Below are positions 58,271 through 64,000 of a stretch of DNA of 64,000 nucleotides, one piece after another. Each line of letters starts with the position of its first letter. Positions within the stretch are counted from its first letter, which is position 1. The translations under genes were made by a program, and so were the position numbers. Where the stretch lies: the NCBI RefSeq assembly GCF_009796285.1, contig NZ_CP047020.1, positions 7,378,001 to 7,442,000 on the forward strand, given 5' to 3'. Below the pieces are notes generated by a model, which saw only the letters and a list, made by a program, of their open reading frames with translations, made no database searches and was not told where the DNA came from. Origin of the DNA: Streptomyces broussonetiae (lineage in GTDB: Bacteria; Actinomycetota; Actinomycetes; Streptomycetales; Streptomycetaceae).

Positions 58271-58330
58271 GCGGAGTAGTGTGAAGACACCGGGAGTTCT
58301 TCGCGCACCGGCTCCGCTGCGGGTGCCGTT
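58271..58330 (+). promoter_or_regulatory. 5' leader of DUF5994 gene, diverged copy
   Basis: It starts with GCGGAGTA (58271-58278). The next 50 bp align without gaps to the leaders at 63273 and 63577, sharing CACCG, TTCGC, CACCGGCT and GTTC at the same spacing. Identity is roughly 60-65 percent. Confidence 0.45.
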
Positions 58331-58385
58331 CCCGGTGATCGACAGCGCCGGGCCGCACCCACGAGCCCGGGGACAGGTTCGCGCC

Positions 58386-58922
58386 ATGGCCGTGACCATT
58401 GACCGTACGACATCGAGCAGATGTGCGCCGCCGCAGCCGGCCCGGCTGTCCCTGACGCCCGCGCCGGGCGGGCTGGACGGTATGTGGTGGCCTCGCTCCC
58501 GTGCCTTCACCCGTGAGCTGCCGTCGTTGACGGCCGCATTGGGTGATCTCTGGGGTCGTATCACGAGTGTCACCGTGCACCCGGCCTACTGGCCCGTCCT
58601 GCCGCATTGGGTGTCCTACGCCGGGCGCACCGTGCAGGTGGGCTGGTCCACCGAGGAGCAGGATCCCCACCGACTCACTCTTTTCTCCGCTGACGGCCGC
58701 CGGGACGTGCTGGTGATTCCGCCGGAAACCGGTGCGGATGCCGCCGCGCAGTTGATGGTCGGCGACGGCGTCGATGCCTCGGCCCGGGAGCAAGCAGCAG
58801 ACAGGATCGATGCACGAAACAGGGAAGAAGCCTGGGAGGACGACGGCGGAGCAGGTCGACCGTCGTCCCGGCCCCGGCCCATCGGCGCGGCAGGGCCTTC
58901 GCCCGCCGGTCGACGGAGGTGA
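58386..58922 (+). CDS. DUF5994-type protein (paralogue 1)
   Basis: A 178-residue soluble protein. The family core is LDGMWWPRSRAFTRELPSLT, then LWGRITSVTVHPAYWPVLPH, VQVGWSTEEQDPHRLTLFSA and DVLVIPPETGADAAAQLMV. Three other genes in the last 6 kb share WWPRSR, WGRIT and the HxLxLxS and IPPET segments. The function is unknown; Streptomyces genomes usually carry several copies. The ATG at 58386 follows GGGGACAGG; a GTG at 58281 in the same frame would include the conserved leader. It is followed after 6 bp by the next gene. Confidence 0.82.
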   Translation: MAVTIDRTTSSRCAPPQPARLSLTPAPGGLDGMWWPRSRAFTRELPSLTAALGDLWGRITSVTVHPAYWPVLPHWVSYAGRTVQVGWSTEEQDPHRLTLFSADGRRDVLVIPPETGADAAAQLMVGDGVDASAREQAADRIDARNREEAWEDDGGAGRPSSRPRPIGAAGPSPAGRRR

Positions 58923-59655: not shown

Positions 59656-59663
59656 GCGGAGTA
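59656..59663 (+). promoter_or_regulatory. GCGGAGTA box shared with other DUF5994 leaders
   Basis: GTGCGGAGTACCGTG here is identical over 15 bases to the sequence in front of the paralogue at 62638-63222. The rest of the conserved leader is not present. Confidence 0.35.
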
Positions 59664-59736
59664 CCGTGAGGTAGCAGGGTCGTATCATGGTCGCACGCCG
59701 TGCGGTCGCACTGCTCTCTGCGGACGGGCGGACACC

Positions 59737-60222
59737 ATGGCAGGCTCAGACACCCCCGACTTCCCCAGGCTCCTGCCGGACGCCGTGCACCGGTCGGTGA
59801 AACCCGGAACGGCCCTGCTGCGACTGGAGACCACCCACGCACGCGAGGGAATCCTGGACGGCGCATGGTGGCCGCGGTCCCGGGACATCGGTGCCGAGCT
59901 TCCCTCGCTGATCTCCGCGTTGACCGAGCATCTCGGGCCTGTCACCCGGGTCGGTCTGGACGGCAGCGCCTGGGACGAACTGCCGACCCGGGTGATGGTC
60001 GACGACCGGGTCGTGCACATCGACTCCTTCCCGGTCGGTGACGACACCGTCCTCATCACCCGAGGCGAAGGGGACCTTTTCTCTCTGTTGCTGGTCCCTC
60101 CGGACACGTCGCCCGACGCGGCACGCGCCGCGATGGCCAGGGCCGTACGGGCCGAAAACGTCACCGAGGCCAGGCAGATCCTCATCGAAACGGGCAGCGA
60201 CACGCCACCTACGCCGGCCTGA
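59737..60222 (+). CDS. DUF5994-type protein (paralogue 2)
   Basis: A 161-residue protein with the family pattern: ALLRLETTHAREGILDGAWW, PRSRDIGAELPSLISALTEH, then a more divergent middle (GPVTRVGLDGSAWDELPTRV) and LFSLLLVPPDTSPDAARAAM. The usual WGRI and HKL segments are altered, so it is the most diverged of the four. The ATG at 59737 follows GGGCGGAC. It stands alone between a terminator and the convergent GNAT-AAA gene. Confidence 0.8.
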   Translation: MAGSDTPDFPRLLPDAVHRSVKPGTALLRLETTHAREGILDGAWWPRSRDIGAELPSLISALTEHLGPVTRVGLDGSAWDELPTRVMVDDRVVHIDSFPVGDDTVLITRGEGDLFSLLLVPPDTSPDAARAAMARAVRAENVTEARQILIETGSDTPPTPA

Positions 60223-62637: not shown

Positions 62638-63222
62638 TCACATGCCGATGACCAGGCGACTGGCGCGATCCGTCCGTGCCGGAACGGCCGCTGAGGCGGG
62701 GCCGTCCTCCTCGTGCTTCCCTGCCTCGTCCGGTTCGAGTGGCCGGTCGGCGGCGGAGACGGCGTGCCGGGTCTCGTCCGCGGCGATGAGAGCGCTTGCG
62801 GTCAGCGGTGGGCCGTCGTAGTCGGACGCGGCCGCCATCAGGCGGGCCGCCGACTCCGTCTCGGTCTCGGGCGGGATGACCAGCAGGTCCCAGCGGCCGG
62901 TGCCGTAGGAGAGCAGCAGCAGCTTGTGCGGGTCGATCTCCGGGGTGAACCATCCGACCTTGACGACATGACCGCCCACGGGGATCTCGTGCGGGATGAC
63001 CGGCCAGTACTTCGGGTTGACGGCGATGCGGGTGATGCGGCCCCACAGAGGGTCCAGCACATCGGTCAGTGCGGGCAGCTCGCTCAGCAGGTCTCGGGAG
63101 CGGGGCCACCAGGCACCGTCCAGGAGGCCGCGCGACGGGCCGTCGGTCTTCAGCGCGAGACGCACGGCCGGGGCTGCGACGGGCTCGTGGTGTGGCAGGA
63201 GTTGGTGCAAGGTCGCCGACAT
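62638..63222 (-). CDS. DUF5994-type protein (paralogue 3)
   Basis: A 194-residue protein. The core is LLDGAWWPRSRDLLSELPAL, then LWGRITRIAVNPKYWPVIPH, EIPVGGHVVKVGWFTPEIDP, HKLLLLSYGTGRWDLLVIPP and ETETESAARLM. A low-complexity acidic tail of about 50 residues follows. The ATG at 63220-63222 sits 15 bp after a hairpin. An uninterrupted frame reaches farther upstream through the conserved leader (63273-63340), so the exact start is uncertain. It is closest to the paralogue at 63675. Confidence 0.85.
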   Translation of the reverse strand: MSATLHQLLPHHEPVAAPAVRLALKTDGPSRGLLDGAWWPRSRDLLSELPALTDVLDPLWGRITRIAVNPKYWPVIPHEIPVGGHVVKVGWFTPEIDPHKLLLLSYGTGRWDLLVIPPETETESAARLMAAASDYDGPPLTASALIAADETRHAVSAADRPLEPDEAGKHEEDGPASAAVPARTDRASRLVIGM

Positions 63223-63237
63223 GATGCGGACCCGTCT

Positions 63238-63340
63238 CCGGGCCGCCTTGGCGGCGCCCCGGGTTTCGTCTCTCGCCGAGAACGACCCGGCGTGGAAGCC
63301 GGTGTGCGAAATGCCCTCGGTGCTGTCCACGGTACTCCGC
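63238..63340 (-). promoter_or_regulatory. conserved structured leader of DUF5994 paralogue 3
   Basis: On the minus strand: GCGGAGTA (63333-63340), then a 49-nt block (63273-63321) that matches the leader at 63577 in all but three positions. A GC hairpin (63238-63263, GCCGCC-AA-GGCGGC core) and GGTCCGCATCATG follow. Within the block CCGAG/CTCGG and CCGGC/GCCGG can form a stem with an inner hairpin. Confidence 0.7.
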
Positions 63341-63557
63341 ACACGCCGGGGCGGTTGTGGAGACGCCGCCGCATTCGGTGAAGCGGCTGTCGATACCGGC
63401 GGCAGTGGGCCGAGGGCGCCGGGGCCCTTCGTATGCCGGCTCCCGGACCGGTCTCACGCCCGACGGCCCGCATGCCCCGGCCCAGCACTCCCCTGGCTCT
63501 GTGACGTGTGTCGTTCCGTTCAGCCCGTCACTCCCCGCCAGTCCGCCGGGCCTCGGC

Positions 63558-63659
63558 GAGGAGTATCCTGGTGATTACCGAGAGCATCTCGTACACCGGC
63601 TTCCACGCCGGGTCGTTCTCGGCGATTCATGGCAACCGGGCCGGCCGTGACCGGCCCGG
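63558..63659 (+). promoter_or_regulatory. conserved structured leader of DUF5994 paralogue 4
   Basis: GAGGAGTATCC (63558-63568) is followed by the conserved block (63577-63625) with stems CCGAGA/TCTCGG and CCGGC/GCCGG. A perfect hairpin CCGGGCCGG/CCGGCCCGG (63636-63659) then ends 15 bp before the ATG. Same order and spacing as in the inverted copy at 63238-63340. Confidence 0.7.
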
Positions 63660-63674: not shown

Positions 63675-64000
63675 ATGACCGCGACCATTCCGTTCACACC
63701 CGCAGTCGGAGACCGGGCCCCTTCTTCGTCACCGCTCCGACTCACGCTGGCGCGGGCCGGCGCCCCTCCGGCCCTGATCGACGGTGCCTGGTGGCCCCGT
63801 TCGCGCAACCTGACGGAGGAGCTCCCGGCGCTCGTCGAATGTCTCGACCCGCTGTGGGGGCGGATCACCCGGATAGCGGTGAGCCGCACGTTGTGGCCGG
63901 TCATCCCGGGTGAAGTGCCCGCGCACGGCCACATGGTGCGCGTCGGCTGGTCCAACGCCGGGCAGGACCCGCACAAGCTGTTGCTGCTGTCCCACACCTT
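63675..64000 (+). CDS. DUF5994-type protein (paralogue 4), cut by the window end
   Basis: The frame from the ATG at 63675 stays open to the right edge (108 codons). LRLTLARAGAPPALIDGAWW, PRSRNLTEELPALVECLDPL, WGRITRIAVSRTLWPVIPGE and VRVGWSNAGQDPHKLLLLSH match the other paralogues in order and spacing. It is divergent from paralogue 3 across about 450 bp holding the two inverted leaders. Confidence 0.85.
   Translation, partial: MTATIPFTPAVGDRAPSSSPLRLTLARAGAPPALIDGAWWPRSRNLTEELPALVECLDPLWGRITRIAVSRTLWPVIPGEVPAHGHMVRVGWSNAGQDPHKLLLLSHT

Follow-up and report, generated by a model that had tools for sequence, protein, structure and literature searches.

The window analysed here (the whole stretch of 64,000 nucleotides from Streptomyces broussonetiae) codes for four proteins of the family PF19457/DUF5994. 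Three of their genes (62638-63222, 63675- and 58386-) are preceded by a structured leader and the fourth, at 59737, by a promoter-like box only. The features are listed below, with P1, P2 and P3 for the three stems and R1 for the covariance model built in this work.
62638-63222, minus strand: DUF5994 gene behind copy 1 (PF19457, E 4.4e-40)
63238-63262, minus strand: GC hairpin P3 of copy 1, directly upstream of the ribosome-binding site (RBS), read from the sequence
63266-63328, minus strand: structured leader, copy 1 (R1 72.5 bits, E 6.6e-20); from pair counts, P1 is 63313-63320 with 63276-63283 and P2 about 63298-63305 with 63285-63291
63329-63334, minus strand: −10-like hexamer TACCGT of copy 1 in the box GGAGTACCGTGGA (63326-63338), with the family-invariant TA...T
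63564-63569, plus strand: −10-like hexamer TATCCT of copy 2 in the box GGAGTATCCTGG, from sequence and family logo
63570-63632, plus strand: structured leader, copy 2 (R1 65.2 bits, E 1.6e-17); P1 is 63578-63585 with 63615-63622 and P2 about 63593-63600 with 63607-63613
63636-63659, plus strand: GC hairpin P3 of copy 2 (CCGGGCCGG / CCGGCCCGG), from sequence and fold
63675-64000, plus strand: DUF5994 gene behind copy 2, which continues past the window end (PF19457, E 1.7e-26; the domain is complete in the genome)
58277-58282, plus strand: −10-like hexamer TAGTGT of copy 3 in the box GGAGTAGTGTGAA (58273-58285)
58282-58345, plus strand: structured leader, copy 3 (R1 69.8 bits, E 5.2e-19); P1 is 58290-58297 with 58328-58335
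58348-58370, plus strand: GC hairpin P3 of copy 3, from sequence and fold
58386-58922, plus strand: DUF5994 gene behind copy 3 (PF19457, E 5e-32)
59656-59671, plus strand: box GCGGAGTACCGTGAGG without the leader, upstream of the second-type DUF5994 gene at 59737
Between 57219 and 62513 the leader genes are clustered with an ATPase gene, an SPFH gene and one for a probable CorA-type transporter, all assigned to their families by translation alone.

The leader was first seen as a duplicated block of 49 nucleotides found at 63273-63321 on the minus strand and at 63577-63625 on the plus strand. The two copies differ at exactly 3 of the 49 positions, as the sequence-only reading of this DNA had it, and the top match among 200 shuffled pairs from both block regions is 32 of 49. 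A repeat finder extends the duplication to inverted arms of 84 nucleotides with 80% identity (63255-63338 and 63560-63643). A GC hairpin and then GGGTCCGC(A/G)TCATG come after each copy, likewise as reported. The two closest paralogues of the window are 67% identical over their first 320 coding bases as against 94% in the block, which upholds the earlier statement that the block is kept better than the coding starts. The diverged copy that had been placed before 58386 is recovered by R1 as copy 3, and the GCGGAGTA box announced upstream of 59737 is present at 59656, where the hairpin leader is absent.

An nhmmer profile was run on the upstream regions from 120 sequences and yielded about 120 distinct elements, of which 57 sharing less than 88% identity were used to build R1 (64 positions, 17 pairs). 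R1 finds six elements in this genome, all with E 1.7e-9 or better. It has matches in 41 of 61 sampled Streptomyces genomes, a few borderline ones being probably false, and in 79 of 148 genomes of the order, another family included. In a sample of the class, true copies precede DUF5994 genes in one further family (loci L272 and L278). At E 1e-5, R1 matched Streptomyces alone among the 396 genomes of a phylum sample. When public genomes were scanned for an exact pattern, 45 contigs came up, nearly all of them labelled as Streptomyces (S. himastatinicus, S. lavendulae, S. griseofuscus, S. roseus and others), and a search of a plasmid collection gave no match. Copies thus recur far beyond recent duplicates, and the block in the window belongs to a folded RNA leader, apparently undescribed, that exists in hundreds of copies.

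The complete unit spans about 105 nucleotides and runs as follows: the −10-like box GGAGTANNSTGRA, 6-8 nucleotides, P1-P2, an A-rich linker, P3, the RBS and the start codon. P1 has 8 base pairs and is separated from P2, of about 8 base pairs with a six-nucleotide loop, by an asymmetric conserved AYUUCG bulge. The bulge bases U (0.85), C (0.95) and G (1.00) are strongly conserved, as are a YGA sequence after P1 (G 0.90) and a CC in the P2 loop. The stretches forming P3 fold with a mean z of −2.4 relative to shuffles (115 leaders), and P3 lacks a U tract in those sequences that were inspected. Downstream of P3 the region of the RBS is conserved (GRCRGGTYCGC, then ATG); the distance from the element to the ATG is 103-109 nucleotides in about 60 of 74 leaders. 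Within predicted folds the mean unpaired probability of the RBS is 0.34, with a wide variation from copy to copy. Three further pairings were considered and discarded. A pseudoknot between UUCG of the bulge and YGAG after P1 is compatible in its bases but sterically implausible (8-bp P1, no linker) and shows little covariation; pairing of the P2 loop with the RBS was seen by eye only and is inconsistent between copies; a start-codon hairpin GGUC...GACC appears occasionally in folds but is not general.

The covariance model and test for compensatory changes that had been proposed on sight of the sequence reveal strong covariation. Among 145 distinct matches, in an alignment fitted to R1 (an unfitted MAFFT alignment gives the same result), 93.4% of cells are paired and changes on both sides are found in 15 of the 17 pairs. 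The covariation score is 0.335 as compared to 0.234 ± 0.006 in shuffles, none of 500 of which reaches the observed value. Relatedness can mimic covariation and the 3′ columns were for that reason simulated along the tree of the elements: 0 of 400 simulations reach the observed values on any of four measures. Simultaneous double changes on the tree number 19 for the true pairs and 0-3 for pairs slid by 1-3 columns. With the same tree, a per-pair G-test of the R-scape type, whose null is too broad, finds no single pair significant, and significance lies only in the whole-structure statistics. Individual cases illustrate the compensation: the CCGAG/CTCGG of other leaders is replaced by GCGAG/CTCGC in those of the desaturase genes, and the leader of locus L168 carries CACGGAGAAC/GTTCTCTGTG. 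Pairing at the RNA level is under selection, and the strand and position of the element are fixed relative to the gene. The earlier view of the block as a nucleic-acid element, RNA or DNA, and not a peptide is supported by this covariation and by the failure of the peptide reading (see below).

The box lies at a fixed spacing from the element, with GTA at −6 to −8 in 134 of 144 elements. Aligned on GTA, these 134 boxes give the consensus GGAGTANNSTGRA, in which T, A and the second T hardly vary; GTA is part of the box selection and the unaligned frequencies agree. The pattern of copy 1 is expected by chance 0.03 times per window, and the 9.7-Mb genome has just two occurrences of the extended pattern GSGGAGTANNGTGRA, each of them at this element. 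The box fits the −10 hexamer TANNNT, from which we infer its role as a promoter; the predicted start, seven bases on, would be an A (70%) just before P1. An EM motif search for a −35 element gave nothing clear, only a weak CCGGTC at scattered positions. By the criteria used, the leader is present at 87 of 173 DUF5994 genes, the box alone at 48 and neither at 38. The second DUF5994 subfamily has the same GGAGTA box and lacks the hairpin leader, so box and leader are separable. SigB-type promoters of Streptomyces also have TA at a similar −10 place, and their homologous sigma factors require GGG where the −10 region begins (PMC8346170), whereas the box here has GGAGTA (A in 80%). A SigB-type promoter was rejected on this ground and on that of the −35 region, in which the GTTT-like (GTTT/GNNT) sequence of these promoters was not found. 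At three loci (L010, L011, L012) the box lies within a palindrome, e.g., CACTACTCCGCG...CGCGGAGTAGTG, just 5′ of the leader and about 170-215 nucleotides before the DUF5994 domain. This palindrome may be the site of a regulator or represent two divergent promoters that overlap.

DUF5994 is present in 123 of 200 sampled Streptomyces genomes, frequently in multiple copies. In an unbiased search of the genus, 69 of 104 examinable elements lie within 450 nucleotides of a DUF5994 domain. About one third thus precede other genes, which identifies the element as the leader of a regulon; its initial assignment to DUF5994 genes holds for most copies but is too narrow. The other carriers code for a STAS-domain fusion, an AlaDh_PNT protein, a fatty-acid desaturase and an SPFH-like protein, as well as for an unnamed family resembling the second half of the STAS fusion, a small unnamed protein and broken DUF5994 remnants. 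The two lowest-scoring matches (L175, L180) look false. Well-kept leaders precede apparently broken or truncated DUF5994 genes at L115 (14826-14889, minus strand), L116 (8656-8719, plus strand) and L168 (2712-2775, plus strand). Three genomes have the element and no detectable DUF5994 gene, so that autoregulation by DUF5994 is not general. The DUF5994 proteins of the window (62638-63222 and 63675-64000) are predicted to adopt a confident alpha/beta fold (mean pLDDT 81). No PDB entry matches this fold (best E 0.32), no solved relative is found by sequence either, and a literature search returned no paper that mentions the family. A role of DUF5994 as an RNA-binding autoregulator was discarded as unsupported, given the lack of a PDB fold match and the genomes in which the element is found without the gene.

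We consider, with a probability of roughly 0.6, that the leader is a cis-acting structured RNA with which the mRNAs of a small regulon in Streptomyces begin, and it probably controls the joint expression of its carrier genes. We infer the following scheme, from promoter and start site to factor binding and direction of control. With the box GGAGTANNSTGRA acting as −10, transcription would start at or next to the A before P1 and the mRNA would begin with P1. P1, the AYUUCG bulge, P2 with its six-nucleotide loop and the flanking YGA could then present a specific recognition surface, P3 being placed directly before the RBS at a nearly fixed spacing to the start codon. A trans-acting factor common to the regulon (in the first place an RNA-binding protein, in the second a small ligand) would bind P1-P2 and, for all carrier genes, would alter either the initiation of translation or the decay of the mRNA. 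By analogy, a bulged hairpin with fixed unpaired bases before unrelated genes has the look of a protein-binding leader, which we therefore rank first, ahead of a riboswitch and of a plain stability stem. A more ambitious formulation, which we put forward tentatively and at less than even odds, is that of a new regulon-wide RNA signalling element in which one promoter type and one sensor RNA control DUF5994 paralogues, STAS fusions, the desaturase and the AlaDH/PNT-like enzyme via an RNA-binding protein or a ligand.

A riboswitch class, in which P1-P2 would be the aptamer for a small molecule or an ion and P3 with the RBS the expression platform, would account for the conserved bulge and loop, the presence before several unrelated genes and the fixed distance to the RBS. 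It is unlikely, as the element is a small single hairpin, the carrier genes have no obvious metabolite in common, and no predicted pairing consistently alternates with the RBS; no alternative fold consistently hiding or exposing that site was found in the predicted folds, in which no expression platform is thus evident. Somewhat less credit still goes to a 5′-terminal stem that merely shields the mRNA from decay without any regulator. The transcript would indeed start at the foot of P1 if the box is a promoter, but such a stem explains neither the near-invariant unpaired bases nor why unrelated genes use a single stem with a single bulge. A DNA operator for a repressor binding just past the start site is very improbable: its position directly after the promoter-like box and the inverted-repeat content would suit it, but G-U or U-G pairs, which a DNA palindrome would not keep, make up about one fifth of the P1 cells (summed from the pair table), the changes are compensatory, and the spacing between the arms is long and asymmetric in an element that precedes the gene on its coding strand. 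A peptide encoded by the leader, or an N-terminal extension, starting at the GTG after GGAG was rejected and retains a negligible probability, for although the GTG frame of copy 1 enters the DUF5994 frame and that of copy 2 ends in ATGA at the start codon, neither a short reading frame nor a start codon is conserved: by their distance to the ATG the leaders fall into each of the three frames (29/27/18), more than a third of the elements have CTG, GTT or CTC as the start-like codon, and the frames stop anywhere from 2 to 300 codons. The related observation that reading frames differ between copies stands for the distance to the ATG and for copies elsewhere, which are out of frame, but not for the two closest copies of the window, whose local block frame is the same.

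To our knowledge, few structured leaders shared by a whole regulon have been described in Streptomyces. The one described here links the uncharacterised, multi-copy DUF5994 family to unrelated genes through a common box and RNA, which offers a direct route to the regulator and to the purpose of DUF5994, and it could be put to use in antibiotic producers as a native part for control. No Rfam 15 family matches the window copies or the element in the 12 loci searched; the one weak match among these loci is far under the cut-off and lies elsewhere in its locus. In genome G289, which we take to be that of S. avermitilis MA-4680, the only R1 matches lie upstream of DUF5994 and of an unnamed small-protein gene. 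The element was not found at the STAS gene (L302:5173) with the R1 filters off, and the genome has no close AlaDH/PNT-like gene, the nearest AlaDH-like one being 23% identical and without the element.

These last genes are of interest in view of the nearest candidates in print, two Streptomyces motifs termed dauA, which precedes STAS genes, and pntA, which precedes genes annotated pntA; the dauA fold is a three-stem junction that takes in the RBS (PMC11109978). Like the leader here, both are structured Streptomyces leaders near the RBS, and in some genomes our element is likewise found before STAS and AlaDH/PNT-like genes. Code 36 of the search from which the two motifs came appears to be S. 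avermitilis (PMC11109978). By gene context and described fold, dauA and pntA appear different from our leader; WRC-36-1 or another supplementary motif of the study could be this element (PMC11109978). Actino-pnp, msiK and mraW, Actinobacteria cis-regulatory RNA candidates obtained by comparative genomics (PMC2864571), are of the same kind as the leader here, which differs in matching no Rfam family. The ANTAR-target RNAs of Actinobacteria resemble it as hairpins in the 5′ leaders of a regulon, with a six-nucleotide loop and often near the RBS, and are protein-bound (PMC8164766). They are defined by two hairpins, each with A1 and G4 in a six-nucleotide loop (PMC8164766), whereas the P2 loop here has no fixed first base and a C at position 4 and the P3 loop is variable, a difference by which an ANTAR target was ruled out.

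A different repeated structured sequence, CGCCGGGGGCGACGCCGACCTGA...CCTCGGTNTCTTCA, was encountered in two other actinobacterial families (L270, L273, L275, L276 and L277, each at 1501-1564). R1 matches it and no Rfam family does, but the repeat, which lies near transposase or integrase genes at three or more of these loci, is distinct from the leader of the DUF5994 genes.
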